This document shows positions 6,943 through 20,270 of a stretch of 23,385 bases of DNA, one piece after another. The position numbers were made by a program, and so were the translations under genes. Position 1 is the first letter of the stretch. The number at the start of each line of letters is the position of its first letter. Source of the DNA: a virus; the IMG/VR virus record IMGVR_UViG_3300032224_000746, positions 1 through 23,385 of that record, one strand, 5' to 3'. The notes under the pieces are model-generated. The model worked only from the letters and a program-made list of their open reading frames with translations. It did not search any database and was not told the origin of the DNA.

Positions 6943-6944
6943 TA

Positions 6945-8146: not shown

Positions 8147-8171
8147 CTTTAAATCTCCTTAGTATTATTTA

Positions 8172-9659
8172 TTACTTCTTGTAAATATTGTTGAGAGCAT
8201 AGCGAAGTCGGTCTTCGGGAGCCATGCTGCCCAAATCGATCTCATCGCTCTCGAACTTCTCACGGACCACTGCAGCAGGAACCTTACCAGCGGGCATCTC
8301 TTCGAGTGCCTTAATGTATTCCGCCTGCTTGTCAACGGTCTCGCGAAGGACTGCCGTGCTCTCGTCAACCTTAGCGGTGACAAAGGCGGTAATCGCATCA
8401 GCAAGGTCGCGCTTAATAACGACCCCGTTGAAGTCCACATCATCGTCGGGAGCAGTAGCCTCAACAGCAACTGCTTCCTCGGTCTTTGCAGCCGTCTCTT
8501 CCTCTTCCGTGATTCCGAGCGCAGCAACCTGCTCATGAAGCGCCTTAAGTGCAGCCATGAACGCCTTAGCGTCCTTCTTAGCGATGCGAGCGCGATCAAC
8601 CTCTGCCTCAGGAGCAGCAGCCTCAACAGGCACTACTTCCTCGACAGGAGCCTCTACAGGAGCCTGCTCTTCCACAACGTCAGCGACGACGGGAGCCGCA
8701 GACTCGGTGGCGACGTTCTCTACCTGCTCAGCAGGTGCGTCAGCCTTGACGAGTTCCTCTGCCATAACCTCTCCATTCTCCTCGCTATCAATTGAGCGAG
8801 CGAGTACTGTTCCAAACGACGGAACCCACGAAGGGCGCGTCGTGTTGCTAATCTCCTTGAGAGCAATGCGCAGGAAACGAATCACCTGCTCACCAGTAGT
8901 CTCATCTCGGAGAACTTTATATTGAACACCGTCACCAGCGATCGACATTCCATACTGCTTGCCATTCTTAATTCTGCTATGCAGATAAAGGGCTGCAGGA
9001 TTTTCTGCGTCGAGGCGAACGGCTACGTTCAATCGATAGTCAGAATCGACAGAGCCAGAAACGACACTGCCGAGTTCGCGAAGCACGCCATCCTTTTGAT
9101 GGTGATCGAGGTAAGGGATTGGGTCACCCGCCGAAGCGCGCTGTTCAATCTGCTTTGCGAAGTCCTCGATTGCGGTTGTATCCATCTCAGTGCCATGCGA
9201 ATCTCGCTCTGGACCAGATGCTTGACCATAGATATAAAGACCGTCAGCGGTCTCTTCTGCTCGGTCAACTGGGATTGTAATCTTCCAGTGATTAGTGCTC
9301 AATTCATACTCCTCAGTTGAACGCTCAACGATCAACTTCTTAGGAATGATCCACAACTTACAAATGCCAAGAGGATCAATATCGCCCTTGACAACTTCGC
9401 AGCCTCGAGGACCATCATATTGAACGCAATTTGCGCAAAGAAGACCACTCTTTTGGAATGGGTTCTTATCTCCTGGACCATAATGTGCTCCATCAGGACC
9501 AGAGCCTTGATCAAATTTGCCATACTCTTCAACCATATCAGCATATAGTTCATACATGCCATCCTGACGCTTAGTCAATGGATAGATAGGATTTCCAATT
9601 GGTTCTTGAGAATCGCCGCTCATATCTTGGGAATTCATCATCCCGTTATCTTCTGCCAT
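8172..9659 (-). CDS. Prohead protease fused to acidic scaffold-like domain, with N-terminal 4-Cys motif
   Basis: This 495-residue protein has three parts. Residues about 75-100 carry Cys75, Cys78, Cys87 and Cys100 (CANC...GC...IDPLGIC), which could bind a metal or an iron-sulphur cluster. Residues about 125-290 resemble a herpes-type (assemblin-like) phage prohead protease: YIYGQASGPERDSHG, then YLDHHQKDG with candidate catalytic His186, and YGMSIAGDG with candidate nucleophile Ser239. Residues about 297-495 are Glu/Ala/Val-rich and then helical, like an internal scaffold. The protease would process scaffold and capsid inside the prohead. Location between portal and major capsid fits. The ribosome-binding site is weak and the gene starts 7 bases after portal ends, so coupling is likely. 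Confidence 0.8.
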   Translation of the reverse strand: MAEDNGMMNSQDMSGDSQEPIGNPIYPLTKRQDGMYELYADMVEEYGKFDQGSGPDGAHYGPGDKNPFQKSGLLCANCVQYDGPRGCEVVKGDIDPLGICKLWIIPKKLIVERSTEEYELSTNHWKITIPVDRAEETADGLYIYGQASGPERDSHGTEMDTTAIEDFAKQIEQRASAGDPIPYLDHHQKDGVLRELGSVVSGSVDSDYRLNVAVRLDAENPAALYLHSRIKNGKQYGMSIAGDGVQYKVLRDETTGEQVIRFLRIALKEISNTTRPSWVPSFGTVLARSIDSEENGEVMAEELVKADAPAEQVENVATESAAPVVADVVEEQAPVEAPVEEVVPVEAAAPEAEVDRARIAKKDAKAFMAALKALHEQVAALGITEEEETAAKTEEAVAVEATAPDDDVDFNGVVIKRDLADAITAFVTAKVDESTAVLRETVDKQAEYIKALEEMPAGKVPAAVVREKFESDEIDLGSMAPEDRLRYALNNIYKK

Positions 9660-9666
9660 CTAGTGC

Positions 9667-10908
9667 CTAACCCTTCATCGGGGTAGTAGCGCCAGTCTTG
9701 GATGAGAGAATTGCTTGCGCGGCGCTATCAACATCTGCTACTGGCATTAAGCCAAGAGGAGTTGAGAGCGAAGCAATATCTCCACCATCGATCGGCGGAA
9801 GACCCAGTTTATTACGTACATAATTGATCGTGTAGATGCCGTGTGTCAAGCCCTTGATGTACATATCCATCTGTGCTGACTCATCACGATAGTCAACTTC
9901 GGAATGCTGGAATAGCACATCCTTAATATTGAAGATCGTATAGAGAAGATGCTCACTCATTACCTCTTCGACGATTGCCTGTAATGGCTTGATCGTCTCA
10001 GATCGGAATGTCTTGTCATTCTCTGCGGACTGTGATCGGTTTGCGCTCTCAGACGTTCCACCCAACTTAGTATAGGGAAGGTCATAGACTGCAAGGATCT
10101 CCATGGTCAACTGCTTACGACCCTCAATGAACTGCATTTCTGCAGGAGAGGAGACCGACTTGCTCACATCGACATCGCCCTCTAGGAGCAATGGCTTATG
10201 GGCATTTGCAGCCGACGTGTATTCCTTCTTAAGGAACTCACGGTTGCGCTCAACTTCCTCACGGGAAGCATTACGCATATTGAAGACAATACCAGTCTGC
10301 GCGGAGTTTGCAAAGAACGCCTCGTTGTAGGTCTGTGCAAACAGATCCTGAGCAACCGTTGAAGTCAACGACTCTAGTGGGCTAAGCCCATAAAGATCAT
10401 TGTCTGGCGCTGCAAACTTAAAGTGTACAAACTCAGTTGGTTCGTACTGGGTTTCAATACCAGTCTTTACATTGCGGACAATGTACGAAGTAACTTCGCG
10501 TGTATTTCGGTCCACGACAATATTGACGCTCGATGGAGCGACACGGATCATCTGAAACGGCACACCATTGCGTGCTGGCAGTAGATACCAGTAGGCATCA
10601 CCGTAGACCAAAAGGTCTCGGTATGTCTCGCGAAGAAGAGAGATAGCGTTTGATCGCTGCAAAATCTCTTCGACCTTTGTCGCAGATCGCTCATTGAGCG
10701 GCTTTGATCGGTCACGAGGAACGAATTGAAAACCAGATGCAACAGCGGTGCGAGCAATCTTATCGACTACTGACCGCACAATTGGATGCTGGCGATACAT
10801 GTTTGTATATGTTGCCCAGGACTTTGCTGGGGTTTCTCGAAAATTGTCACCAGTAATAGAAACAATATTCGAAGCGCGCTCAACCTTGACCGCTTTAGTC
10901 TTCGCCAT
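9667..10908 (-). CDS. Portal protein (HK97-like)
   Basis: The product is 413 residues from the ATG at 10908, which has AAGGAGG six bases upstream; an in-frame upstream ATG has no such site. Portal dodecamers form the DNA entry vertex and dock terminase and connector. Diagnostic stretches are HPIVRSVVDKIARTAVASGF near the N-terminus, VYGDAYWYLLPARNGVP, EFVHFKFAAPDNDLYGLSPL and YTINYVRNKLGLPPIDGGD near the C-terminus. These are typical of the HK97-type portal family, and length is normal. It overlaps the upstream zinc-ribbon gene by 14 bases and precedes the protease-scaffold gene. Confidence 0.93.
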   Translation of the reverse strand: MAKTKAVKVERASNIVSITGDNFRETPAKSWATYTNMYRQHPIVRSVVDKIARTAVASGFQFVPRDRSKPLNERSATKVEEILQRSNAISLLRETYRDLLVYGDAYWYLLPARNGVPFQMIRVAPSSVNIVVDRNTREVTSYIVRNVKTGIETQYEPTEFVHFKFAAPDNDLYGLSPLESLTSTVAQDLFAQTYNEAFFANSAQTGIVFNMRNASREEVERNREFLKKEYTSAANAHKPLLLEGDVDVSKSVSSPAEMQFIEGRKQLTMEILAVYDLPYTKLGGTSESANRSQSAENDKTFRSETIKPLQAIVEEVMSEHLLYTIFNIKDVLFQHSEVDYRDESAQMDMYIKGLTHGIYTINYVRNKLGLPPIDGGDIASLSTPLGLMPVADVDSAAQAILSSKTGATTPMKG

Positions 10909-11110
10909 TCTCAGCCTCCTTGGACTTGCTTGAGATGAAGACGGCATCGCCGCTTCGCCACGTTACGGTCATAGCGCACTTGCGACAAGGACCGCTTACG
11001 CGACCATCAATCTCTCGGAATAGGTCTTTGAACTTAATGCGCAGAACTTTGTCGTCACCTTCAATCCCGAAAAGTGACCCGCAGTGCTGGCACTTCACAG
11101 GATTTGGCAT
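10895..11110 (-). CDS. Small zinc-ribbon protein
   Basis: The product is 71 residues with two CxxC knuckles, CQHC near residues 6-9 and CRKC near residue 46, the normal layout of a zinc ribbon. The ATG at 11110 has GGAAGG eight bases upstream; longer in-frame starts run into a low-complexity spacer and are not favoured. The C-terminus is charged (SSKSKEAENGED) and overlaps the portal start by 14 bases, which suggests translational coupling. Role unknown; short zinc-ribbon proteins near terminase and portal genes occur in many phages and may bind nucleic acid. Confidence 0.75.
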   Translation of the reverse strand: MPNPVKCQHCGSLFGIEGDDKVLRIKFKDLFREIDGRVSGPCRKCAMTVTWRSGDAVFISSKSKEAENGED

Positions 11111-11201
11111 ACATAGCCCTTCCATTAAGGTGCGTTGTGTGAGCGGGGGGAGGGGCAGCCTCAACCGTCGCCAGACAGGGACCCTCTGGGTATGTCTCCC
11201 G

Positions 11202-11253
11202 CCCACGTAAGGTTCCGCTGCCTACAAAGCGAGCAGACGGAAGTTGACGTGGG
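11202..11253 (-). promoter_or_regulatory. Long imperfect inverted repeat after the 48-residue gene
   Basis: Arms at 11202-11217 and 11238-11253 match at 13 of 16 positions (CCCACGT and TTCCG blocks) around a 20-base loop. It begins right after the stop codon of the upstream leftward gene, within a 144-base gap before the zinc-ribbon gene. There is no U-tract, so it may be a processing or stability hairpin, or a weak terminator. Confidence 0.5.
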
Positions 11254-11254
11254 A

Positions 11255-11401
11255 TTACTTCTTCTTTCCAGCAGCCTTACGCGCCTTATCAGCGCTTGCA
11301 AGAGCCATAGCAATCGCTTGCTTCTGGGGATGACCCTTCTTCATCTCGGCTGAGATGTTTGCAGAAACGGTCTTTGACGAATAGCCCTTCTTGAGTGGCA
11401 T
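11255..11401 (-). CDS. Small basic phage protein (MPLKKG type), unknown function
   Basis: The product is 48 residues: it opens MPLKKGYSSKTVSANISAEM and ends in a Lys-rich tail, with HPQKQAIAMALASADKARKA between. This belongs to a widespread set of tiny proteins in phages and bacteria recognised by MPLKKG-S-KTxSxNI and PQKQAxAIAL; I know of no established function. AAGGAG lies eight bases before the ATG, overlapping the end of the terminase gene. Lys/Arg content suggests nucleic acid binding (inference). Confidence 0.88.
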   Translation of the reverse strand: MPLKKGYSSKTVSANISAEMKKGHPQKQAIAMALASADKARKAAGKKK

Positions 11402-11413
11402 TCTTGTGACTCC

Positions 11414-12835
11414 TTACCAGGCGAAGTTAATCGCTGGTGACTTGCGCCCAACTCCGTAGAGTGCGAGCATTGCGGACCAATAGTAGTCATCGTGTTCGTT
11501 GTCTCGTGCTCGAAACAAGTAGTTCCCAGCCTCTGACTTGCGACGCTCGATAGAGTGGATCTCATGCAGTAGATCGCGATGCCGAGGCATGCGGATCTTA
11601 CCAGTCTGCAGATCGCTCTTGAACGACGTTGCCCAATTCTCTTTGAGTGCTTGGGTAAAGACAACAGGCTCGACGATTCCACCATGGGAAGCAACGAGAC
11701 GCTCTGCAATCACCGCGCCAACGCCAGTAGCGTCGACCGTGACCCGCAAGGGCTTGAGGTCTTTAATCAATTGCTCAAAGAACTGGACCTGCTTTTCGTA
11801 GTCGTCCTGAGTTTCGAAGGTCTTCACAATCGTCTTCACGTCAGTCTCCTCGTCGAGGTGAGCAACAGTGACAACGGTTTTGTCTACCTTTTTTGCAAGG
11901 TCGATACCAATGCAGTACTTAAGCGACGGGTCATAGGCTTTTCCCAGAAGTTCGTCATCGACGTTTTGGACGATGAGACCCCATGGGTAAAAGTTGACCG
12001 TCTCGTCAGCGAACGAGCACTCGTATTCCTGTCTGAAGGAGTCGATGCCCATATTGTTAAAGATTGACTTGATTGAATCAGTTCCCCAGCGGTTGACCCG
12101 CTCAGGTGTATCGTAATCGGCTGCTAGCGCCGTGCTCTCTGCGGGGTCGATCGACATGATCGAACACTCCCACCATGGAACGATATGAACTGAGTACTCA
12201 GGGTAACGAGCACGGTCGTTGGCGATCTCAAAGAACAAGCCGCTCTTACCGAGTGGCGTTGATACGATCGTGAGCCGTGAGTCACCGCGAGTAGTCGCAG
12301 GAATTGCTGCGTCATAGAGTTTCCGAGCGTCGCGAATGAACGCGAACTCATCGAAGTAGACATCCTTCTCTCCACCGCGCACTGCTGAAGACGCAGGCTG
12401 CGAGATCAGATAAGAGGTGTCTGGGTGGTTGTGGAGGCTGAACTCGAACTCAGCCGATGTGTAAATCGGCGCTCGGAATCCCGATAGTTCTGGGATAGAG
12501 AAGTAGAATTGCTTGGCGTAGTTAACCTTGTCAGAGGCTTCCTTCTGGTTAATCGAGACGTAGTTCACCTTCTTTGACCGATTGGTCAAGATGCGGTGCA
12601 GTCCCTCACCAGAGATGATGTACGAGAAGCCAATCTGTCGCGACTTGGCAACGAGACGGAACTTACTCTTGTCGTTCAGGAAGCGAATCTGATACGGTTC
12701 CAGTTTCGTCGGCATCCCCTTGGTCTCCGTCAGGAGTTCCAGGAAGAGCGACGGAGATTCCTTCAATAGCGCTGCCAACTGCTCCCGCGAGGGTTGCGAG
12801 CCGTGCAGTGTCAATTCCTCTGGATTCAAATACAT
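11414..12835 (-). CDS. terL: Terminase large subunit
   Basis: The DNA-packaging motor and headful or cohesive-end nuclease, 473 residues if read from 12835. The ATPase half has a Walker A-like KSRQIGFSY (residues 64-72), Walker B DVYFDEFAF (D158, D162, E163) and coupling motif STPLG (192-196). The nuclease half has acidic residues at GIDLA (D312), VDATG (D368) and HDDYYW (D449/D450), an RNase H-like set. The ATG at 12835 lacks a ribosome-binding site and overlaps the small subunit by 173 bases. An in-frame ATG at 12715 (residue 41) has GGAG nine bases upstream and a 53-base overlap, and may be the true start. It acts with the small subunit and portal. Confidence 0.95.
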   Translation of the reverse strand: MYLNPEELTLHGSQPSREQLAALLKESPSLFLELLTETKGMPTKLEPYQIRFLNDKSKFRLVAKSRQIGFSYIISGEGLHRILTNRSKKVNYVSINQKEASDKVNYAKQFYFSIPELSGFRAPIYTSAEFEFSLHNHPDTSYLISQPASSAVRGGEKDVYFDEFAFIRDARKLYDAAIPATTRGDSRLTIVSTPLGKSGLFFEIANDRARYPEYSVHIVPWWECSIMSIDPAESTALAADYDTPERVNRWGTDSIKSIFNNMGIDSFRQEYECSFADETVNFYPWGLIVQNVDDELLGKAYDPSLKYCIGIDLAKKVDKTVVTVAHLDEETDVKTIVKTFETQDDYEKQVQFFEQLIKDLKPLRVTVDATGVGAVIAERLVASHGGIVEPVVFTQALKENWATSFKSDLQTGKIRMPRHRDLLHEIHSIERRKSEAGNYLFRARDNEHDDYYWSAMLALYGVGRKSPAINFAW

Positions 12836-13232
12836 TTTGTATAAACGTCACGGCGTTCGGCACATCGTCGCCCTTCTCGTGCTTTTCCATCTGGAAACGG
12901 AGCGCGAGGAGTTCTTTGATGGTGCTGGAGCGCTGTGTCGCCTCCCGTGTTAGTTGCCCACCCGTAATCTCGTCGGCGAGTTGGGGGAGCAGGGCTTTGA
13001 GTTGGAGTGACAAGAAGATGTCGATGTCCTTCTCAAGCACGGGCTTTTCTTGACCACCGAGGACCCCAGACAGGTAGTTCCAGTCCTCGCGGGACAGGAA
13101 CGGAGCCAGTTTGTCTTTGAGCGCGTCCACGGAGACCGAATCGGTCTTTGGCTTGGTCCGCGCCCCCTTGGGTCGTCCTCGGTTTGCCGCGCCCACCGAG
13201 GCAGTCGCGGCACGCTTGGTTGTATCGGACAT
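12663..13232 (-). CDS. Terminase small subunit (putative)
   Basis: The product is 189 residues. A basic N-terminus (ANRGRPKGARTKPKTDSV, an AT-hook-like GRPKG) is followed by helical sequence (VDALKDKLAPFLSREDWNYL, DIFLSLQLKALLPQLADEI) and an acidic tail. Small terminase subunits recognise phage DNA and stimulate the large subunit; they vary greatly in sequence. The assignment rests on location immediately upstream of and overlapping terL, the basic DNA-binding-like N-terminus and helical core. It is the first leftward gene after the divergent control region. The ribosome-binding site is weak (GTAGAG). Confidence 0.7.
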   Translation of the reverse strand: MSDTTKRAATASVGAANRGRPKGARTKPKTDSVSVDALKDKLAPFLSREDWNYLSGVLGGQEKPVLEKDIDIFLSLQLKALLPQLADEITGGQLTREATQRSSTIKELLALRFQMEKHEKGDDVPNAVTFIQNVFESRGIDTARLATLAGAVGSAIEGISVALPGTPDGDQGDADETGTVSDSLPERQE

Positions 13233-13671
13233 CTGTGTGTCTCTACTTTCGTAAACGTTTTTTTAAAATTTTGACTCCCCCATCAGTTGTACCAGTCAGG
13301 CTGGTCAGCCAGGGGATAGCCGTAATTTTTTTTTAGACTTTCTTCCAGTTTAGCCTGGTAAGAATAGTCTTCCTACTCTATATGGGATTTAGGGTACTGA
13401 TTCGTCCTGATATTAAACATAGAGTATGACTTTTACCAAGGAGCACCCCAGTTTACCCTGTTTCGGCGTTTTTTTCATTTTCCTGCCAGTGCCTGCCAGT
13501 CTTTCTGGATTCTGCCAGTTTACCTAGGGTATGGGTAAAAAAGTTAGAAAACTGCATGTATTTCCTCACGCTACCAGCCCGAGATAAGGAAATAGGCGAT
13601 GGAGCGTATTTGAGGGTGGATTTTAGTGTGATTTTTCGCGGATTCTGCCCCTCGTGCGTGGGATTCTCTCT
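13233..13671. promoter_or_regulatory. Divergent intergenic region with CCAGTTTA / CTGCCAGT repeats
   Basis: No gene is seen here. It contains T runs near 13258-13272 and 13324-13334 and a set of related short repeats: CCAGTTTA followed by pyrimidine-rich sequence at 13345, 13448 and 13515, CTGCCAGT at 13483, 13493 and 13512, and the palindrome ACCAG-TCAGG-CTGGT at 13291-13305. TACTCTAT (13374-13381) is inverted at 13419-13426. This is AT-richer than either side and lies where leftward and rightward transcription diverge, so it probably holds promoters and operators, or a replication origin with iterons. I could not point to a convincing -35/-10 pair. Confidence 0.55.
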
Positions 13672-13703
13672 CTACGGGACGGGACGCGAAGCGTCCGCCG
13701 TAG
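13672..13703 (+). promoter_or_regulatory. Leader hairpin before the first rightward gene
   Basis: CTACGG and CCGTAG enclose an inner stem GGACGC-GAA-GCGTCC. It is followed by GGATACGGAAGGGG and the ATG, resembling the leader hairpin and AAGGGG site of several downstream genes, although element A itself is absent here. Confidence 0.6.
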
Positions 13704-13723
13704 GATACGGAAGGGGTACGGAT

Positions 13724-14512
13724 ATGATCGCAACGGATACGCGCACAATCGCAACGCTAGACGCGGCGGACGCGCTAGCCGTGCTAGCCGCTAGCGTATC
13801 GGCTAGCGCGCGCCTCGCCCTGCTAGGCACGGGGGACGCGGACGATATCGCGGCGGAAGCCTACGCCGCTTGGCTTACGGCGGGAAGCCCCGCCGCGTGG
13901 ACTATCGCGGATGCGATCCGCGCGGGCGTGGCTTCGCTTCGCCCTAGCCGCGAGGGGCTAACGGATGATGAGGGCGGGGACTACGGGTTAGCCGTCTACG
14001 CATCCGCTAGCACGGCGGACGGGCTTACAATCGGGGACGCTATGGATGCGATCCGCGAAGACGCTACGGGCTACGCCGTACGCACGGACGGCGTGCGGGG
14101 CTTCGCGGATGGCGCGCGCTTCGCTATCGTCTACGCGGCGGACGGGTACGATACGGACGGCGCAACCTATACGGACGCTAGCGGGGCTAGCGTCTACGGG
14201 ATGGACGCGATCCTAGCGGCGCGATCCGCCGCGCTTCGCGAGGATACGGCGGGGGAGCACGGGCAAGCCGCCGCCGCGCGAGGGGCTAAGAATCAAGCCG
14301 CTAGCGCGGGGACGGATGCCGCCGTAGCCGCCGCGTATCGGGCGGATGGCGGCGGCAAGGGCTACGCGGCACGGATCGCCGTAGCCCTCGGATGGCTTAG
14401 CGCGGACGCTACGGACGCGCAACGCCTCGCCGCTATGAATCGCGTACGGGTAGCCGTATCGCGGATGAATCGCCGCACGGACGGCGAGGATACGCATAGC
14501 GCGCGGGACTAG
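13724..14512 (+). CDS. Ala/Asp-rich protein, unknown; weak sigma-factor-like pattern
   Basis: The product is 262 residues from the ATG at 13724, chosen because GGAAGGGG lies upstream, just as before other rightward genes; longer in-frame starts lack this. About a third of residues are Ala, there is no Cys and very little Lys. Two stretches recall ECF-type sigma factors: GDADDIAAEAYAAWL followed by AAWTIADAIRAGVASLR (region 2-like), and near the C-terminus ARIAVALGWL then RVRVAVSRMNRR (region 4-like helix-turn-helix). The similarity is weak and judged by eye. Base use is extreme: many CTAG and GCTAGC words and almost no CAG or CTG. It leads the rightward array, fitting a regulator, but function is not established. 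Confidence 0.72.
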   Translation: MIATDTRTIATLDAADALAVLAASVSASARLALLGTGDADDIAAEAYAAWLTAGSPAAWTIADAIRAGVASLRPSREGLTDDEGGDYGLAVYASASTADGLTIGDAMDAIREDATGYAVRTDGVRGFADGARFAIVYAADGYDTDGATYTDASGASVYGMDAILAARSAALREDTAGEHGQAAAARGAKNQAASAGTDAAVAAAYRADGGGKGYAARIAVALGWLSADATDAQRLAAMNRVRVAVSRMNRRTDGEDTHSARD

Positions 14513-14763
14513 CCCTAGCGGGGAGGGGGACGCGCCCCCTCCCCTAGCGTAGCCGTGAAGCCCTTACCCGTAGCGGGTAGGGGCTTCATAGCGTCTAGGG
14601 GCTAGCGCGTAGCCGCCGCACGGATGGGCTAGCGTAGGGCTAGGAAGCCCGTAGGGACGCGATACGGGACGCGGCGCGGGATTGTAGCCCCTAGCCCTAG
14701 CGCGGGGCGTAGCGGGGCGCATACGCGGACGCGCCGCACGGCTTCGCATAATCCGCCGCATCC
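14513..14763 (+). terminator. Tandem strong hairpins and CTAG-rich noncoding stretch
   Basis: Right after the stop, GGGGAGGGGG-ACGCG-CCCCCTCCCC (14520-14544) forms a perfect 10-bp stem, flanked by CTAGCG on each side. A second stem at 14557-14587 pairs GAAGCCC...TACCCG with CGGGTA...GGGCTTC. No U-tract follows either. The remaining 175 bases hold no gene that I can support; they share the CTAG-rich, CAG/CTG-free composition of the preceding gene. Confidence 0.55.
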
Positions 14764-14851
14764 AAGTGTGTAATGATCGGGGATGGGTAGCAAGCCCGTA
14801 ATGATGTCGGTGGATAGTGGAGGGGCGGGATATACCCGCTCCCCGATAGTG
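14764..14851 (+). repeat. Cassette leader 1: elements B and A plus leader hairpin
   Basis: Element B (AAGTGTGTAATG) is at 14764-14775 and element A at 14792-14818 with central triplet ATG; their starts are 28 bases apart. A leader hairpin (GGGGCGGG with CCCGCTCCCC, 14822-14844) is bounded by TAGTG at 14815 and 14847. AAGGGG and the start codon follow. Confidence 0.85.
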
Positions 14852-14862
14852 TAAGGGGTGTA

Positions 14863-15051
14863 ATGATGAGCAAGGGTGATAAGGCGTTCGTGATCGCTAG
14901 CGTAGTGATCGGCGCAGCAGTAGGCACACACTTCGCGGATATTGTCGGCGGGATTGTCGGCGGATTCGCAGGGCTAGGCGCAGCGTGCGTAGCCTACGCA
15001 ATCGGGGATGAAGTCAATATGCGACTGGCGGAGCATTACCGCAAGGCGTAA
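14863..15051 (+). CDS. Small membrane-associated Gly-rich protein, unknown
   Basis: The product is 62 residues. Residues about 8-50 are hydrophobic and Gly/Ala-rich (FVIASVVIGAAVGTHFADIV, then GGIVGGFAGLGAACVAYAIG), enough for one or two short membrane helices with glycine-zipper spacing. The C-terminus is charged. Two adjacent ATGs (14863, 14866) follow AAGGGG; either may be used. It could be a small membrane-acting protein, for instance a superinfection-exclusion or holin-like peptide, but nothing specific supports that. Confidence 0.7.
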   Translation: MMSKGDKAFVIASVVIGAAVGTHFADIVGGIVGGFAGLGAACVAYAIGDEVNMRLAEHYRKA

Positions 15052-15059
15052 GGGTAGAC

Positions 15060-15093
15060 GGGACGGGTAGGGGTAGCATCCCCCTCCCGTCCC
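15060..15093 (+). terminator. GC-rich hairpin after gene
   Basis: GGGACGGG and GGGG pair with CCCC and CCCGTCCC around a six-base loop, a 12-bp stem with small bulges that starts 8 bases after the stop codon. No U-tract follows. Confidence 0.5.
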
Positions 15094-15105
15094 GCTACGC
15101 ATACC

Positions 15106-15159
15106 AAGTGTGTAATGGTCTAGGTTGGGGCTAAGCCCGTAATGATGTCGGTGGATAGT
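15106..15159 (+). repeat. Cassette leader 2: elements B and A with no gene following
   Basis: B is at 15106-15117 and A at 15133-15159 (triplet ATG), starts 27 bases apart. No ribosome-binding site and start codon follow; instead a strong hairpin comes 28 bases later and then the next leader. The stretch 15052-15363 between genes therefore contains two leaders and two hairpins but no supported gene. Confidence 0.82.
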
Positions 15160-15187
15160 GAGCCGCAATAAGAGCGGCGGGGCAAGG

Positions 15188-15216
15188 GTCTAGGGGGATA
15201 CGGATGCCCCCTAGAC
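15188..15216 (+). terminator. Perfect 10-bp hairpin in the gene-less cassette
   Basis: GTCTAGGGGG (15188-15197) pairs perfectly with CCCCCTAGAC (15207-15216) around a nine-base loop. It occupies the position of the hairpin that normally follows a gene, but here it directly follows element A. Confidence 0.5.
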
Positions 15217-15232
15217 GCACCCTATCCCGCAC

Positions 15233-15349
15233 CATTACGCACTTGCTTGCGATTCCGAACGCGCCTAAGTGTGTAATGATCGCGGATGGGGTGAAAGCCC
15301 GTAATGATGTCGGTGGATAGTGAGGGGTGGACGATCCATCCCCGTAGTG
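15233..15349 (+). repeat. Cassette leader 3: inverted arm, B, A and leader hairpin
   Basis: The inverted arm CATTACGCACTT (15233-15244) faces B (15267-15278) across 22 bases. A is at 15295-15321 (triplet ATG), 28 bases after B. The leader hairpin GGGGTGGA/TCCATCCCC (15324-15343, one bulged base) lies between TAGTG at 15318 and 15345. Confidence 0.85.
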
Positions 15350-15363
15350 CGAAGGGGTACGAT

Positions 15364-15705
15364 ATGGGACTACTCGCAACGATCCGCGCTAAGGGCGGCG
15401 CAACGCTAGACGCGGCGACGCTTACGGACGCGGGACTATCGGACGGGTACGCCGTAGGGATGGCGCAGGGAACCGCCCTGATGCTACCAGACGACGCGGA
15501 TGATACTACGCTAGGGCTAGCCCTTAGCCTGATCGCAGGGGCGTACGGATGCGCCTTCGTGGGGGCTTGGGTAGCGGATGACGGGGTACACCTAGACCCC
15601 GTAGCCGTAGTCCCTACCCTAGCGGACGCTATGGACGCGGGGCGACGCTACCAGCAGCGCGCCGTGTACGATATCGCAGGGGCGACGGAGCACGCCGTAG
15701 CCTAA
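15364..15705 (+). CDS. Hypothetical protein, unknown
   Basis: The product is 113 residues from the ATG at 15364, placed after GAAGGGGTACGAT, almost the same upstream sequence as the 13724 gene. It is Ala/Asp/Gly-rich, with LADAMDAGRRYQQRAVYDI near the C-terminus and two internal Ala/Leu-rich helices (LGLALSLIAGAYGCAFVGAW). I recognise no family. An upstream in-frame ATG inside element A would add 20 residues that translate the repeat and hairpin, so it is not preferred. Codon use is CTA- and ACG-rich as in the first rightward gene. Confidence 0.72.
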   Translation: MGLLATIRAKGGATLDAATLTDAGLSDGYAVGMAQGTALMLPDDADDTTLGLALSLIAGAYGCAFVGAWVADDGVHLDPVAVVPTLADAMDAGRRYQQRAVYDIAGATEHAVA

Positions 15706-15706
15706 G

Positions 15707-15737
15707 GGGGACGGGGGGCGGGCGCAAGCCCGTCCCC
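15707..15737 (+). terminator. GC-rich hairpin after gene
   Basis: GGGGACGGG (15707-15715) pairs perfectly with CCCGTCCCC (15729-15737), beginning right after the stop codon. There is no U-tract. Confidence 0.5.
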
Positions 15738-15747
15738 TATCCCGTAC

Positions 15748-15864
15748 CATTACACGCTTGTTTTGGTGTGCCTTGCGCGTGGAAGTGTGTAATGATTAGG
15801 GATGGGCAACAAGCCAGTAATGTTCTCGGTGGATAGTGAGGGGTGGGCTTCCATCCCCGTAGTG
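15748..15864 (+). repeat. Cassette leader 4: inverted arm, B, A and leader hairpin
   Basis: The inverted arm CATTACACGCTT is at 15748-15759, B at 15783-15794, and A at 15811-15837 (variant AAGCCAGTAATG, triplet TTC), B to A 28 bases. The hairpin GGGGTGG...CCATCCCC (15840-15858) lies between TAGTG copies at 15834 and 15860. Confidence 0.85.
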
Positions 15865-15876
15865 TAGGGGTGAAGT

Positions 15877-16020
15877 ATGTACGCAGAATCGGATAAGTTT
15901 ATTGCGGATTGTGAAGTGTGCGCGATTCTAGGCATCCGCTCCCTCGCGCGATTCTTGGGCGGCGGGCGTTGGCTATGCGATCCGTGCTCGGTGGACTTCA
16001 TCAAGGCGCGTAGGGGATAG
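15877..16020 (+). CDS. Small zinc-ribbon-like protein
   Basis: The product is 47 residues with two CxxC pairs: CEVC (residues 12-15) and CDPC (residues 34-37), 18 residues apart, a standard zinc-ribbon spacing. AGGGGTGAAGT precedes the ATG. The rest is short and basic at the C-terminus (FIKARRG). Probably a nucleic-acid or protein-binding knuckle; no specific family recognised. Confidence 0.72.
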   Translation: MYAESDKFIADCEVCAILGIRSLARFLGGGRWLCDPCSVDFIKARRG

Positions 16021-16027
16021 CCCTCAT

Positions 16028-16145
16028 CATTACACACTTCGGCGCGGTCGGCGCGCTTACCAAGTGTGTAATGGTGAAGGTTGGGCGACAAGCCCGTAAT
16101 GTTCTCGGTGGATAGTGGAGGAGCAGACAAACTGCTCCCGTAGTG
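16028..16145 (+). repeat. Cassette leader 5: perfect inverted B pair, A and leader hairpin
   Basis: CATTACACACTT (16028-16039) and AAGTGTGTAATG (16062-16073) are a perfect 12-bp inverted repeat with a 22-base loop that itself contains repeated GGCGCG. A is at 16090-16116 (triplet TTC), 28 bases after B. The hairpin GGAGCAG-ACAAA-CTGCTCC (16120-16138, including one A shared with the loop) lies between TAGTG at 16113 and 16141. Confidence 0.88.
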
Positions 16146-16158
16146 TAAGGGGTGCGAT

Positions 16159-16386
16159 ATGGTTAGGCTTATGATCCAAGTATTCGCGGAAACCACATAC
16201 GAGCGGGCGTTCTACGAGGTAGAGATTGCGGCGCGTACCGAGAAGGGCGTATTCCGCGAGGCGAAGAAACTCGCAACCGCCCTAGCCGCAACGCTGGAAG
16301 GGCGCACAATCGCAACCGAGGTGATGCTTACGGAAAACGCGCAACGCGCCGCGTATGGGACGGTCATCCGTAGCAACCACCGCTAG
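16159..16386 (+). CDS. Hypothetical protein, unknown
   Basis: The product is 75 residues. It starts with beta-type sequence (RLMIQVFAETTYERAFYEVEI), followed by a helix (VFREAKKLATALAATLEG) and a short C-terminal strand-like part. AAGGGGTGCGAT precedes the ATG. A small alpha/beta domain is likely. I recognise no family, and there is no cysteine, signal peptide or membrane segment. Confidence 0.72.
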   Translation: MVRLMIQVFAETTYERAFYEVEIAARTEKGVFREAKKLATALAATLEGRTIATEVMLTENAQRAAYGTVIRSNHR

Positions 16387-16392
16387 GACTTC

Positions 16393-16428
16393 GGTAGGGG
16401 GCGGGGTCGTATCCCTCCGTCCCCTACC
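16393..16428 (+). terminator. GC-rich hairpin after gene
   Basis: GGTAGGGG (16393-16400) pairs with CCCCTACC (16421-16428), with further inner CGG/CCG pairing. It begins 6 bases after the stop codon and directly abuts the following inverted B arm. Confidence 0.5.
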
Positions 16429-16545
16429 ATTACACGCTTCCGTGCGTTCCGATACGCGGGCAAGTGTGTAATGGTGAAGGATAGGGGTAAAGCCCGTAAT
16501 GTTCTCGGTGGATAGTGGAGGGACGGACAATCCGCCCCCCTAGTG
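16428..16545 (+). repeat. Cassette leader 6: inverted arm, B, A and leader hairpin
   Basis: The inverted arm CATTACACGCTT is at 16428-16439, B at 16462-16473 (22-base loop), and A at 16490-16516 (triplet TTC), 28 bases after B. The hairpin GGGACGGA...TCCGCCCC (16520-16538) lies between TAGTG at 16513 and 16541. Confidence 0.86.
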
Positions 16546-16557
16546 TGAGGTGTAGCA

Positions 16558-16884
16558 ATGGGAAGAGTAAGCAATAGAAACGCGGATGCGCATATCCGCA
16601 ACGCGATCCCGTTCGTAGGGTCTAACTTCTACGGGGTAGACGGATCGCATAGCCGATACGGATCGGCGCGATGGTATCTATCGGGCGCGGCGGAGGAGCG
16701 ATTCCATAAGGATCAGGCAGCGGGGAAGATTCATTACTCGGTCTGGTCTTATAGCACGCCTATCGCGTGGCTTGTGGAGGGCGAGGGCTGGGTTATCCCG
16801 CCCGTCAAGTACTCAATGAGCACGGGGCGACACCAGTCCTATGTGCGCCGCGCTACGGCGGGGCAAGCAATCGCAACGGCGTAG
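16558..16884 (+). CDS. Conserved phage protein with SYxTPIAW motif, unknown function
   Basis: The product is 108 residues. The segment VWSYSTPIAWLVEGEGWVIP followed by VKYSMSTGRHQSYVRRA matches a pattern I know from uncharacterised phage and plasmid proteins, in which a TPIAW strand, a W-x-P turn and S-x-T-x-RHQ are conserved; I recall these as DUF proteins without known activity. The N-terminal half is basic and includes FVGSNFYGVDG. GAGGTGTAGCA precedes the ATG. Possibly a small nucleic-acid-related domain, but the role is unknown. Confidence 0.8.
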   Translation: MGRVSNRNADAHIRNAIPFVGSNFYGVDGSHSRYGSARWYLSGAAEERFHKDQAAGKIHYSVWSYSTPIAWLVEGEGWVIPPVKYSMSTGRHQSYVRRATAGQAIATA

Positions 16885-16891
16885 GCGGTAC

Positions 16892-16919
16892 GGGGGGCGG
16901 GCGAGGTAGCCCGTCCCCC
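16892..16919 (+). terminator. GC-rich hairpin after gene with G-U wobble
   Basis: GGGGG-G-CGGGC pairs with GCCCG-T-CCCCC, an 11-bp stem containing one G-U pair that is stable only in the rightward transcript. It starts 7 bases after the stop. Confidence 0.5.
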
Positions 16920-16930
16920 TATACCCCTAC

Positions 16931-17100
16931 CATTACACACTTCCGAACTGCGCCGAACTACCCAAGTGTGTAATGATGCTGGATGTGCCTAAGTGTGTAA
17001 TGGTTGGGGATGACCCGCAAGCCCGTAATGTTCTCGGTGGATAGTGGAAGGACAAGCAACAATGCTAGACACCAAGCCCGTAATGGACTCGGTGGATAGT
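16931..17100 (+). repeat. Cassette leaders 7 and 8: B-B-A plus a second A in tandem
   Basis: The inverted arm CATTACACACTT (16931-16942) is followed by B at 16964-16975, a second B at 16991-17002, and A at 17019-17045 (triplet TTC). Starts are spaced 27 and 28 bases. A further A copy (triplet GAC) follows at 17074-17100. This is the densest element cluster in the window and begins a 679-base stretch (16885-17563) without a firmly supported gene. Confidence 0.85.
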
Positions 17101-17217
17101 GGAGGGGCAGACCGAATCCTAGGAATCGGTACGGACTTCCAATGGTGAGGCTCTTGGACGAGCGAGCAGTTATGCCGCAGCCATAAGTGCGGGTATAAGA
17201 GAAGCAAAGGGCGATGA
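17062..17217 (+). pseudogene. Possible small reading frame interrupted by TGA, ending in a Cys/His knuckle
   Basis: An ATG at 17062 preceded by GGAAGG opens 28 codons, which read through element A copy 8, then meets TGA at 17146-17148. The same frame continues for 22 codons (GSWTSEQLCRSHKCGYKRSKGR given in parts: GSWTSEQLC, RSHKCGYKRSKGR) to a TGA at 17215. The second part looks protein-like, with C-R-S-H-K-C, but has no start codon of its own. It may be a decayed small gene into which an element was copied. A chance frame is equally possible. Confidence 0.3.
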
Positions 17218-17297
17218 CCGCTAAACCAATGTATCGGAGGAGCGGTAGGGCGCGAGGAGGGCAACCCCGACGGGGGCAAACCCGAATCAACCCGAAT

Positions 17298-17333
17298 AAG
17301 AGGGGGGCTACCCGACGGGGTAGTCCTCCTCTT
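17298..17333 (+). terminator. Very long hairpin (16 bp) with two G-U pairs
   Basis: AAGAGGGGGGCTACCC (17298-17313) pairs with GGGTAGTCCTCCTCTT (17318-17333), including two G-U wobbles that favour the rightward RNA. It is the hairpin closing the cluster before the next leader. Confidence 0.55.
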
Positions 17334-17349
17334 GCTATCCCCGTCCTAC

Positions 17350-17439
17350 CATTACGGGCTTGTTTTTTATCCGATCAAGTGTGTAATGATGAGGGTTGCG
17401 CCGAAATAACCCAAGCCAGTAATGATCTCGGTGGATAGC
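17350..17439 (+). repeat. Cassette leader 9: inverted arm matching A, then B and A
   Basis: Here the left arm is CATTACGGGCTT (17350-17361), the exact complement of the A start AAGCCCGTAATG rather than of B. B is at 17377-17388 and A at 17413-17439 (variant AAGCCAGTAATG, triplet ATC, ends GGATAGC). Only a doubtful 20-codon frame follows. Confidence 0.82.
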
Positions 17440-17469
17440 AGAGGGGCGACTCCAATAAGGAGCAGAGAG

Positions 17470-17532
17470 ATGGGGGCTATACGCCCTCCCGCCGCAGGGG
17501 GTAAAACTGCCGTCCCTCTACTAAGCCAGTAA
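17470..17532 (+). CDS. Doubtful 20-residue reading frame
   Basis: AGGAG lies seven bases before an ATG that opens 20 codons (MGAIRPPAAGGKTAVPLLSQ) and stops with the TAA inside the next element A. The frame also contains a GGGGGC/GCCC hairpin. Position after a leader and stop inside the next one fit the local cassette pattern, but the length allows no firm call. Confidence 0.25.
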   Translation: MGAIRPPAAGGKTAVPLLSQ

Positions 17533-17549
17533 TGGTATCGGTGGATAGT
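17523..17549 (+). repeat. Element A copy 10 (compact leader)
   Basis: Variant AAGCCAGTAATG, triplet GTA, then TCGGTGGATAGT. AGGAGG follows directly, without a leader hairpin, and the ATG is at 17564. Confidence 0.85.
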
Positions 17550-17563
17550 GAGGAGGTGTACCA

Positions 17564-17752
17564 ATGGCAGTAGGCGTGAACTTGACTGACCTGATTCGCT
17601 ATGAGCAGGGCGAGATGACCGAGGAGGAGGTCGTGAACTTCTTCCAAGACCTCTACGACTCTGGGGTATGGCATCAACTACAAGGGCATTACCAGCGCAC
17701 GATGAACGATCTCGTTCAGGCGGGACTGGTATCGGTGTTCGGGAGCAACTAA
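17564..17752 (+). CDS. Conserved small phage protein (DUF7417-like), unknown function
   Basis: The product is 62 residues. DLIRYEQGEMTEEEVVNFFQ, then LYDSGVWHQLQGHYQR and a hydrophobic end (LVQAGLVSVFG) match a small family common in phages of Actinobacteria, recognised by YExGExxEEExxxxFQxLxDxGxxWQLQGxYxR. I associate it with DUF7417 from memory. It is helical, acidic and probably cytosolic. GAGGAGGTG precedes the ATG. Biochemical role unknown. Confidence 0.85.
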   Translation: MAVGVNLTDLIRYEQGEMTEEEVVNFFQDLYDSGVWHQLQGHYQRTMNDLVQAGLVSVFGSN

Positions 17753-17783
17753 CTACACGGGGGACGCACTACCCCCGACTTCT

Positions 17784-17815
17784 GGGACGGCAGGGACGCA
17801 CCCCCCTGTCGTCCC
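17784..17815 (+). terminator. 12-bp hairpin after gene
   Basis: GGGACGGCAGGG (17784-17795) pairs with CCCTGTCGTCCC (17804-17815), one G-U wobble, in the rightward transcript. No U-tract. Confidence 0.5.
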
Positions 17816-17828
17816 TACTACCATAGGC

Positions 17829-17990
17829 AAGTGTGTAATGGTTGGGGATGGGTGGCAAGTGTGTAATGTTGTGGGTTGGGTTGGCAGAACTGGGCAGGAT
17901 TGGGGGCGGATGGTAAAGAAAACCTAACCTAACCATAATCATTACACACATAATCGCACGGAGCGCGTTGGTAGGATGTAGCGTGTAATG
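17829..17990 (+). repeat. Two B elements and a long G-U-rich inverted repeat in a gene-free stretch
   Basis: B copies at 17829-17840 and 17857-17868 are 28 bases apart. The sequence from 17857 (GTGTGTAATG...GGTTGGGTTGG) is inverted at about 17922-17949 (CCTAACCTAACC...CATTACACAC), pairing with two G-U wobbles. A further GCGTGTAATG is at 17981-17990. A degenerate A start (AAGCCTGTAATG) is at 18013. The interval 17753-18238 holds these repeats and leaders 11 and 12, and no gene that I can support. Confidence 0.7.
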
Positions 17991-18065
17991 GTAGAGGTGT
18001 ATAGATAGGAGCAAGCCTGTAATGATCTGGGCTAATCCGTGCGTAGAACACCTGTTCTAGCCGTC

Positions 18066-18092
18066 AAGCCCGTAATGATATCGGTGGATAGT
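18066..18092 (+). repeat. Element A copy 11, no gene following
   Basis: The triplet is ATA. The downstream 83 bases contain AGGAG but no usable start codon before the next element at 18176. Confidence 0.85.
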
Positions 18093-18175
18093 AGGAGATA
18101 GCGACATAGAGGAAGCGGGTATAGACCCCCCTATATATCGCCATATTTCTGCGGTATTTCGGCGCGATTATTGGG

Positions 18176-18229
18176 AAGCCCGTAATGGTGTCGGTGGATA
18201 GTGAGGGGATCGGTGTGATCCCCATAGTG
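18176..18229 (+). repeat. Element A copy 12 with perfect leader hairpin
   Basis: A is at 18176-18202 (triplet GTG). GGGGATC (18205-18211) pairs perfectly with GATCCCC (18217-18223) between TAGTG copies at 18199 and 18225. GAGGTG and the ATG follow. Confidence 0.88.
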
Positions 18230-18238
18230 GAGGTGGGT

Positions 18239-18475
18239 ATGGCTGAGCAGGAGTTTATCAACATTACGCCTAGCAGCGACGGCTACGCAATGATGGCGGC
18301 GGTGTTCGCTGAGGATATTCTCGGCAACATCCGCAAGAGTGATCGCGAGCGTATGACCTCGCTCTTGGGATCGGTTATCAACATTTCGGCGCACTTGGGC
18401 AACGCAGCAGCGCAGGACGACGCGGACGCGATCAAAGCGTACGAGTGGCTTGTGGAGCGGTTCCCCGCAAAGTAA
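18239..18475 (+). CDS. Hypothetical protein, unknown
   Basis: The product is 78 residues from the ATG at 18239, after GGAGGTGGGT. The protein is largely helical (GYAMMAAVFAEDILGNIRKS, then LLGSVINISAHLGNAAAQDD) and ends AYEWLVERFPAK. No family recognised. The stop codon TAA overlaps the first two bases of the next element A. An in-frame ATG within element A would add 18 residues read through the hairpin and is not preferred. Confidence 0.75.
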   Translation: MAEQEFINITPSSDGYAMMAAVFAEDILGNIRKSDRERMTSLLGSVINISAHLGNAAAQDDADAIKAYEWLVERFPAK

Positions 18476-18526
18476 GCCCGTAATGGTGTCGGTGGATAGT
18501 AGGAAGCCCCCGTTGGGGGAGTAGTG
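18474..18526 (+). repeat. Element A copy 13 with leader hairpin; overlaps preceding stop codon
   Basis: A is at 18474-18500 (triplet GTG); its first two bases complete the TAA of the gene before it. CCCCC-GTT-GGGGG (18507-18519) forms the leader hairpin, followed by TAGTG and GAGGTG. Confidence 0.86.
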
Positions 18527-18535
18527 GAGGTGTGT

Positions 18536-18907
18536 ATGGCGTACTACAAGGGGAATACATCATTACCAGAGCATTGGGGAACGATTGAGCACACGGATCA
18601 CGCAGGGGTAGTTCGGCGCACTAGGCGGTGGATGGCGTACGAGGGTGCGGATACCCTTGATGACTTCCGTCAAGCGTGGAAGCGCACCCGTGTCTGGAAG
18701 TGCGGGATCGCTCATCACGATGCGTATCGGATTGAGCCTACGCCGTGCGCGGTGTGCGGCGTAATGATTACTGAGGAAGTCGGGCAAGACAACCGACCCT
18801 TCGTTGAGTGGCGACGCGGGTGGGCAGACTTGCGGGTCAAACATTACAAGTGCGCGTGGGGTCAGACTCTCAACGCGGTGGTGAACCTAAGCAGGGAACT
18901 AGCCTAA
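18536..18907 (+). CDS. Hypothetical protein with CxxC motif, unknown
   Basis: The product is 123 residues from the ATG at 18536, after GGAGGTGTGT. It contains CAVC (around residues 79-82) and a later HYKCAWG, which may form a metal site with the HH pair earlier (IAHHDAYRI). The N-terminal half is aromatic and charged (RRTRRWMAYEGADTLDDF, QAWKRTRVWKC). I recognise no family. Its stop TAA overlaps the next element A. Confidence 0.74.
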   Translation: MAYYKGNTSLPEHWGTIEHTDHAGVVRRTRRWMAYEGADTLDDFRQAWKRTRVWKCGIAHHDAYRIEPTPCAVCGVMITEEVGQDNRPFVEWRRGWADLRVKHYKCAWGQTLNAVVNLSRELA

Positions 18908-18932
18908 GCCCGTAATGGTGTCGGTGGATAGT
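18906..18932 (+). repeat. Element A copy 14 (compact)
   Basis: The triplet is GTG. The element starts inside the stop codon of the previous gene; AGGAGGTG and the ATG at 18945 follow without a hairpin. Confidence 0.88.
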
Positions 18933-18944
18933 AGGAGGTGGAGT

Positions 18945-19166
18945 ATGAAGATCGGTAGCGCAGAGCGATATGGTGAGCACTATCAAGTGGTTCGGATGTT
19001 CTTTGAGGATCGTCCGCGCGAGGTGGTCGCGAAGTATATGACCCTTGCGGAAGCGCAGGAGTGGTGTCGCGATCCCGAAACTAGCAGCAGCACGGCGACG
19101 AGCGCGGAAGCGGTCGCCCGTACGGAGAAGTTGGGCGCGTGGTTTGACGGCTACGAGGAAGTCTAA
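18945..19166 (+). CDS. Conserved phage protein (EAQxWCxDPETSS type), unknown function
   Basis: The product is 73 residues. The pattern YMTLAEAQEWCRDPETSSST followed by TSAEAVARTEKLGAWFDGYEE matches a small family I know from many actinobacteriophages and other phages, with invariant EAQ, C-x-DPETSS and G-x-WFDGYE. No function is known to me. AGGAGGTGGAGT precedes the ATG. It likely forms a compact alpha/beta domain in the cytosol. Confidence 0.85.
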   Translation: MKIGSAERYGEHYQVVRMFFEDRPREVVAKYMTLAEAQEWCRDPETSSSTATSAEAVARTEKLGAWFDGYEEV

Positions 19167-19173
19167 CCGCAAT

Positions 19174-19258
19174 CATTACGCGCTTCGGCGCGTGTGGAAG
19201 TGTGTAATGGTAAAGGATGGGCAGGAAAAACAAGCCCGTAATGATGTCGGTGGATAGT
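19174..19258 (+). repeat. Cassette leader 15: inverted arm, B and A
   Basis: The inverted arm CATTACGCGCTT is at 19174-19185, B at 19198-19209 (12-base loop), and A at 19232-19258 (triplet ATG), 34 bases after B. The stop-proximal sequence TAACCGCAATCATTAC recurs at 20883. Confidence 0.85.
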
Positions 19259-19271
19259 GAGGAGGTGGAGT

Positions 19272-19364
19272 ATGAAGGTTCGGTGCGATGAGTGTGGTCG
19301 GGTCTTTGACCTGAGCAACAATGAGCAAGCGCAGGAGTGGGCATACGGACACGATTGCGAGTAA
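19272..19364 (+). CDS. Tiny C2HC zinc-finger-like protein
   Basis: The product is 30 residues: CDEC (residues 5-8) and a C-terminal H-x-C (GHDCE) form a plausible CCHC-type zinc knuckle. GAGGAGGTGGAGT precedes the ATG. The TAA stop overlaps the next element A, so this gene is a complete minimal cassette from one element to the next. Confidence 0.75.
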   Translation: MKVRCDECGRVFDLSNNEQAQEWAYGHDCE

Positions 19365-19389
19365 GCCCGTAATGATATCGGTGGATAGT
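19363..19389 (+). repeat. Element A copy 16 (compact)
   Basis: The triplet is ATA. The element overlaps the previous stop codon by two bases, and AGGAGGTGGCT leads straight into the ATG at 19401. Confidence 0.88.
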
Positions 19390-19400
19390 AGGAGGTGGCT

Positions 19401-19817
19401 ATGAAGATCACAAGCGTGGTACTGGAAGCAAGCGACGCGGTGAATATCGTAGTGGGCGCGATTGAGGGCGGCACGGGGTATTGGGCTGAGTGTACCGACT
19501 ACAAGTGGAAGCGTTGGTATGTGAATCCCGATGCTAAGTTTGACGACCCCGACCACGACAAACTACGGGATATCCCGCGCGACGAGGTGCTCGTCCGTAT
19601 CAAGGAAGACGAGGACAACGGCGAGCCGACGCGCGAGGTGAACGACTGGTTTGAGATCACGACGGAGAACTTGGAGCGAGCGGTGTGCGCCGTGCTCAAT
19701 AGCGAGTACGCCCATACCATCTCGTTTGACGCATACGGCGGAGAGATAGATGTGGACGCGACGGGCGCGGATATCATCTTTCAGTACGCAATGTTCGGGG
19801 AACTGGTCTTCGCATAA
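19401..19817 (+). CDS. Acidic hypothetical protein, unknown
   Basis: The product is 138 residues from the ATG at 19401; a GTG two codons earlier lies within the ribosome-binding site and is rejected. The N-terminus (MKITSVVLEASDAVNIVVGA) looks like a beta-strand pair, and YWAECTDYKWKRWYVNPDAK is aromatic. The second half is strongly acidic (RIKEDEDNGEPTREVNDWFE; ISFDAYGGEIDVDATGADII). No recognised family. Strong acidity may indicate a DNA-mimic or inhibitor-type protein, which is speculation. Confidence 0.75.
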   Translation: MKITSVVLEASDAVNIVVGAIEGGTGYWAECTDYKWKRWYVNPDAKFDDPDHDKLRDIPRDEVLVRIKEDEDNGEPTREVNDWFEITTENLERAVCAVLNSEYAHTISFDAYGGEIDVDATGADIIFQYAMFGELVFA

Positions 19818-19818
19818 C

Positions 19819-19845
19819 AAGCCCGTAATGGTGTCGGTGGATAGC
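19819..19845 (+). repeat. Element A copy 17 (compact)
   Basis: The triplet is GTG and the element ends GGATAGC. It follows the previous TAA after one base. AGAGGAGGTGGAGT leads to the ATG at 19860. Confidence 0.86.
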
Positions 19846-19859
19846 AGAGGAGGTGGAGT

Positions 19860-20138: not shown

Positions 20139-20269
20139 GCACGAAGGTATGGTGCGACGACTGCGAGCGCACGGAGATTGTCTGCGAGTGCGTAGACAAT
20201 AAAGATCGGGATAATGCTTGCTACGAGTTAGAGCAAGCAGAGAACTGCGAACATAGTCAGGAGGGGTAG
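20135..20269 (+). CDS. Small Cys-rich protein, unknown
   Basis: The product is 44 residues from a GTG that overlaps the preceding TGA (GTGA). AAGGAGG lies seven bases upstream, which supports the GTG. Cysteines occur as CDDC and CEC plus two more, and the sequence is otherwise acidic. It probably binds a metal. The four-base overlap with the previous gene implies translational coupling. Confidence 0.65.
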   Translation: MSTKVWCDDCERTEIVCECVDNKDRDNACYELEQAENCEHSQEG

Positions 20270-20270
20270 G

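Follow-up and report, generated by a model that had tools for sequence, protein, structure and literature searches.

In phage T5, for which the order of DNA entry is known, our counts find neither GAATTC nor GATATC, the sites of EcoRI and EcoRV, in the first 30 kb from the entering end. In a T5-like phage, EcoRI sites have been described as absent from the pre-early region (PMC13250531). For lambda, a link between the direction of ejection and the distribution of restriction sites has been proposed, the entering end deciding the exposure to enzymes (PMC10287942). The leading region of conjugative plasmids, which enters first, is specialised against host defence by carrying anti-defence genes (Samuel et al. 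2024, PMC11541004). A genome-wide deficit of Type II sites has been reported for prokaryotic viruses (Rusinov et al. 2018, PMC6286503), and a study of avoidance in plasmids likewise treats whole genomes (PMC10359461). Restriction-site avoidance is usually scored in this genome-wide manner, and averages over a genome would conceal any polarity. Phages A-4L, Nostoc N1 and T7 have lost one or two words broadly or over the whole genome, without nested, end-anchored segments. GATC and GGCC are entirely absent from A-4L (KF356198), as is GGCC from Nostoc phage N1 (KU234532).

The window analysed here is the whole stretch of 23,385 nucleotides of the virus record IMGVR_UViG_3300032224_000746. It had no megablast match to any phage record. 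A search of IMG/VR with its large terminase subunit (TerL) yielded 17 loci, of which G000 is the window itself; G000, G003 and G005 constitute clade A, and G001 and G002 clade B. T5 was absent among the TerL tblastn matches listed, the best of which had 29% identity, and these comparisons do not indicate kinship to T5 (Demerecviridae). The only relative of TerL in bacterial genome contigs was a 25% match in a Cloacimonadota MAG, and the capsid and other phage proteins likewise gave no useful clue to the host.

The early arm and its boundary

Counts of all 16 palindromic tetranucleotides divide the window at about position 13,556. The early arm to the right (13556..23385) has no AATT, ACGT, AGCT, CATG, CCGG, GGCC, TCGA or TTAA and a single TGCA, located near the far end of the window. 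The odd-length or gapped sites GTNAC, CCNGG, GGNCC, CASTG, TTNAA, TGWCA and CTNNAG are also absent from this arm, while GATC, GTAC, CGCG, GCGC and ATAT occur about as often as expected or more. The late, structural arm (1..13555) strictly avoids only AGCT (0 against 53 expected), CCGG (0 against 55) and GGCC (1 against 55), other palindromes being ordinary. Over the entire window, AGCT and CCGG are thereby missing and GGCC is found once. GTAC, CGCG, GCGC, CTAG and usually GATC are spared palindromes at normal or high levels, and the avoidance is therefore word-specific and not directed at palindromes as such. It covers noncoding DNA of the early arm as much as coding DNA. The original prediction, which was concerned with the kilobase at 13730-14763, missed that nine palindromic tetranucleotides are gone from the right arm, but for a single copy of one, and that three are missing, or nearly so, from the whole window. 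That kilobase is the end, or tip, of a larger site-free arm.

In the late arm, genes on the minus strand encode the major capsid protein (7274..8146; PHROG 212, E 1e-15), the portal protein (9667..10947; PHROG 12, E 3.5e-63), the terminase large subunit (11414..12835; PHROG 2, E 2e-36) and, upstream of terL, a putative terminase small subunit without PHROG match (12663..13232). The terminase genes are separated from gene 1 of the early arm by a noncoding stretch (13233..13580) that is conserved in G003 and G005; its part at 13233-13556 carries CTGCCAGT repeats and GTAAAAAAGTTAGAAAA. The last CATG (13555), TGCA (13553), TTAA, AATT and ACGT before the site-free arm are all located in this stretch, which we consider a candidate packaging site or genome end. 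Gene 1 (13724..14512, plus strand, 262 residues) is the first gene of the early arm and occupies the same position in G001-G006 and G013. It had no PHROG, Pfam or convincing PDB match, and its AF2 model is poor (pLDDT 59). A sigma factor, considered from the motif EDLIQEA/DADDIAAEA, was unsupported by Pfam and PDB profiles.

The first 10 kb of the early arm encode small proteins, mostly without match, a pyrimidine dimer glycosylase being among the few that were matched. More than 20 copies of a leader element, AAGCCCGTAATGNTNTCGGTGGATAGTG, are found between the small early genes on the plus strand (14763..22559; e.g. 14791-14827, 15294-15330 and 21315-21351). In a small alignment of copies the element is often followed by a hairpin, in which five of the 11 predicted pairs display compensatory change. 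It is possibly a phage promoter or leader; it had no Rfam match and no matches in a pattern search of viral contigs. No known anti-restriction gene was recognised. The original prediction had also called for a search for a phage methyltransferase, and neither the motif [DNST]PP[YFW] nor a C5 motif was found in long frames of the 17 contigs, the complete 57-kb relative G002 included, with the exception of one spurious frame. Self-methylation was accordingly rejected as a reason for the return of sites.

Site return and restriction specificities among relatives

In close relatives (77-99% TerL identity) whose contigs extend sufficiently, the boundary likewise lies upstream of the terminase genes, and the boundary with gene 1 first is common to all relatives long enough to show them. 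The complete relative G002, of clade B, is 57,186 bp long with identical 127-bp ends and was on this basis treated as circular, with 57,059 bp. With regard to a T5-type long terminal repeat with injection stop, the only end repeat seen in G002 is the 127-bp overlap, which is compatible with circular assembly. Measured from the boundary, the first site in G002 appears at 8.6 kb for TGCA, 15.0 kb for TTAA, 17.4 kb for CATG, 18.2 kb for AATT, 20.8 kb for ACGT, 22.4 kb for TCGA, 24.2 kb for GGCC and 27.7 kb for AGCT, and CCGG never appears. The longest gaps of seven words (AGCT 27.9, TCGA 23.0, ACGT 21.3, AATT 18.7, CATG 17.4, TTAA 15.2 and TGCA 8.6 kb) all begin no more than 600 bp from one boundary, and that of GGCC (27.1 kb) begins within 2.9 kb of it. 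In genomes simulated by an order-3 Markov model, the longest gaps for the same seven palindromes reached at most 2.2-4.6 kb, and among the non-palindromic tetranucleotides listed for G002 the longest gap is 2.9 kb. Several words remain below their plateau density for some kilobases beyond the first site, which indicates that the relaxation is mostly graded.

G005, G001 and G001b follow the same plan as G002 with differences in detail. The order in which sites return is only weakly common to relatives (Spearman 0.49, P 0.04 for G002 and G005; other pairs not significant). The gene-1 allele of G001b, G004 and G006 carries CATG and TGCA sites and may have come in by recent exchange with a lineage whose hosts differ. 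In G001b the word CATG, though present in gene 1, is missing from the roughly 16 kb that follow. Relatives at 67-74% TerL identity (G008-G010) have other genome-wide word losses and no site-free arm in the available contigs. Distant relatives (47-49% identity) display no polar pattern in the available stretches; their word losses comprise AGCT in two and scarcity of TTAA in the GC-rich ones. Further relatives of the early arm were searched for and none was found.

Some side observations belong to these genomes. CCGG is also at zero in the complete 57-kb G002, and AGCT is avoided throughout only in G000, G003 and G005. In two distant TerL relatives, L065 and L063, AGCT is absent throughout loci of 10-21 kb, other palindromes being without polar avoidance. 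The contig of G001 (IMGVR_UViG_3300027608_000021, 83,149 bp) holds two copies of a genome region about 55 kb apart and about 77-90% identical, and is probably two related phages joined in assembly. In the early arm of G002, at positions 11186-14330 of its record, a MoxR-like AAA ATPase precedes a protein whose CobT-like (cobalamin biosynthesis) match is weak.

The purged words, asymmetric ones included, coincide with known restriction specificities (REBASE prototypes). Depleted early and not late in clade A are GTCTC, CTTGAG, CTGGAG, CTGAAG, RGCGCY and GTYRAC, and in clade B GAAGAC, RGCGCY, GTYRAC and CASTG, GTCTC being spared. Two asymmetric words, the sites of BsmAI (GTCTC) and BbsI (GAAGAC), are purged in opposite clades: GTCTC stands at 2/56 early against 89/72 late in clade A and at 100/60 early in clade B, and GAAGAC at 0/14 early against 31/17 late in clade B and at 18/12 early in clade A. 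RGCGCY, GTYRAC, CASTG, CCWGG, CTGGAG, CTGAAG and CTTGAG are all at zero in the early arm of clade A. Roughly two dozen specificities, a number that depends on how nested words are counted, are involved in this clade; the purge extends over about 10-28 kb.

The loss of a site in place can be followed for GATC. The early arms of G000 and G005 are 85.2% identical over 7,982 bp and hold 35 and 0 GATC, respectively, against 40 and 40, with 20 shared, in late arms that are 84.8% identical over 7,836 bp. Of the coding GATCs in the G000 early arm, 44 can be aligned, and G005 has lost every one, with varied substitutions and with the amino acids unchanged at 24 of them. Such lineage-specific, varied and often synonymous loss, in arms of equal divergence, speaks against an origin in protein change, mutation or import, and the alignment indicates that selection acts on DNA and not on protein. 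Depletion beyond Markov expectation, the match to specificities and synonymous site loss together agree, at the level of sequence, with restriction-site avoidance. Escape from restriction had been among the causes put forward in the original prediction, and it is supported in general form; the single target containing CAG/CTG that was envisaged is not, as about two dozen specificities are purged and the CTAG palindrome is untouched.

Word bias at the tip of the arm

The strongest word bias, assessed by word counts, dinucleotide ratios and Markov models, is found at the tip of the early arm (13730..14763), where G+C is 70%. More than 20 CTAG, many as GCTAGC, with one CTG and no CAG had been noted here by eye, and the counts are 21 CTAG (2.9 expected at order 0), 10 GCTAGC, one CTG and no CAG. 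Outside 13.0-15.8 kb, CTAG reaches a maximum of five in any 1,034-bp stretch, and every such stretch has at least eight CAG+CTG. The proposed check of k-mers against Markov models leaves the tip an outlier in both models used. In 2,000 simulations of an order-2 model of the window, CTAG had a mean of 3.0 and a maximum of 11 and CAG+CTG a mean of 32 and a minimum of 16; a model preserving the dinucleotides of the tip itself gave 8.1 CTAG (maximum 19) and 15 CAG+CTG (minimum 4). The statements that the bias crosses the coding boundary, fades rightward and is absent from the left arm are likewise borne out. TA is enriched 2.7-fold in gene 1 and 3.9-fold in the 251-bp noncoding part, and CA/TG is reduced to 0.43 and 0.34 times in the same two parts. 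With distance rightward from the tip the TA ratio runs 2.84, 1.78, 1.33 and 0.93 and the CA ratio 0.39, 0.84, 0.89 and 1.02, and the left arm has 22 CTAG against 53 expected and normal or high CAG.

The depletion of CAG/CTG at the tip is about 40-fold, and the distortion, like the purge of sites, weakens further from the end. The trinucleotides lost at the tip vary by lineage: CAG in G000 and G003, AAG/AGA in G003, ACA in G005 and GAC in G002. The gain of CTAG as a mere by-product of banned words was rejected, simulations lacking those words giving 3-4 CTAG against the 21 observed, as was a prediction of the tip vocabulary by the load of purged sites, with which no correlation was seen (Spearman -0.11). 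The absence of CAG/CTG is not predicted by the list of purged Type II sites. Restriction-site avoidance accounts only partly for the gain of CTAG and the loss of CAG/CTG, and that the latter is the extreme of the same avoidance gradient is the least secure of our conclusions.

Entry polarity, alternatives and known systems

In many tailed phages the end packaged last enters first, and packaging begins beside the terminase genes; the gene-1 end would thus be the entering end. The last-in-first-out rule has been questioned for lambda (PMC10287942). We infer that entry begins at the gene-1 boundary, that the selecting agent is host restriction and that protection builds during entry. The right arm would then lead the genome into the host, and a site located there would be exposed to active host enzymes at a time when no phage product has been made, DNA arriving later being safer. 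Selection would strip this end of both palindromic and asymmetric targets, about two dozen Type II specificities in all, for the most part through silent substitutions. Because the danger of a site would fall with distance from the entering end, each specificity would be purged to its own distance. A single declining danger curve, weighted by how much each enzyme matters, would produce the nesting, and the purge would reach deepest for the most important specificities, perhaps those commonest among hosts. In the first kilobase, targets that are weak or rare, asymmetric or non-Type-II ones included, may be counterselected too, and a small vocabulary of CTAG, CGTA, GCTA, GATC and CGCG with nearly no CAG/CTG could result. 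Polar restriction-site avoidance, in which the leading DNA has to withstand host restriction until phage counter-measures take effect, is in our judgement the probable explanation.

The avoidance could instead be tied to early genes and not to the order of entry, if the genome enters fast and a cut in an early gene is fatal, a late cut being repairable or coming after protection. The purged part coincides with the early gene block and the late genes are spared, but the avoidance tapers from one end, and how far it reaches depends on the word. The gradient also runs through small-ORF, AAA/VWA and replication genes alike and covers noncoding DNA equally, and we regard this explanation as unlikely. 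Recent import had been suggested in the original prediction, and the early arm might stem from a phage of another host with another restriction repertoire, the gradient being a mosaic of imports. The sharp boundary at 13.55 kb would agree with such an origin, and the gene-1 allele of G001b, G004 and G006 with its different avoidance set suggests some exchange at the tip. It is nevertheless very improbable for the arm, since gene 1, the boundary and the nested pattern are the same in relatives from separate metagenomes, and since G000 and G005 differ to the same extent in early and late arms, at about 85% identity, with GATC purged in place.

Hardly credible is a mutational or base-composition process at the arm end that makes the word bias without restriction selection, although a local process of this kind had also been suggested. 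Exact zeros are found for words of 4-6 bp that match restriction sites, with sister words normal, and sites are lost word by word, through many substitution types and at synonymous positions, with word sets that are lineage-specific; the high TA, low CA/TG and high G+C of the tip and the bias of its noncoding DNA are what such a process has in its favour. For the tip only, and compatible with polar avoidance, a separate three-base pressure may remove CAG/CTG independently of the Type II gradient, e.g. avoidance of CRISPR PAMs, of asymmetric Type I/III/IIG targets or of initiation signals. We hold this as a tentative possibility: the depletion is of a size that the Type II site list does not predict and other lineages lose other trinucleotides, but the distortion fades in step with the purged sites.

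Returning to polar avoidance, we lean towards regarding the genome as a readable gradient, in which the sequence alone would record the polarity of entry, the restriction repertoire of the hosts and the danger of each enzyme over entry, with the vocabulary of the tip squeezed down to trinucleotides. With such a gradient one could test from sequence alone which genome end leads, list the restriction enzymes of consequence in uncultured hosts and gauge how late in entry each of them is still dangerous. The early small genes would also be marked as places to seek counter-restriction proteins.

No description of a nested multi-enzyme gradient was found in the open-access literature, subscription papers being mostly outside the search, and its novelty is provisional to that extent. 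It appears undescribed so far, with T5 as a one- or two-enzyme precedent. As in the prokaryotic viruses of Rusinov et al. 2018 (PMC6286503), Type II sites are under-represented, but that analysis is genome-wide and its text is without 'early', 'injection' or 'first-step', whereas the avoidance here is position-dependent. The plasmid leading region is likewise first-entering DNA specialised against host defence; there anti-defence genes serve this role and PMC11541004 is silent on depletion of recognition sites or palindromes, whereas here the sequence itself is without targets. For lambda the relation is a proposal (PMC10287942), and the present window adds a sequence record, from an uncultured phage, consistent with such pressure. 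There is also a likeness to the first-step-transfer, pre-early DNA of T5, in that the site-free stretch starts at the end that enters first, here presumed to be that of gene 1. In T5, however, one or two specificities of 6 bp are involved and no 4-bp palindrome is affected, whereas here about two dozen specificities are purged to nested distances and three of them window-wide.
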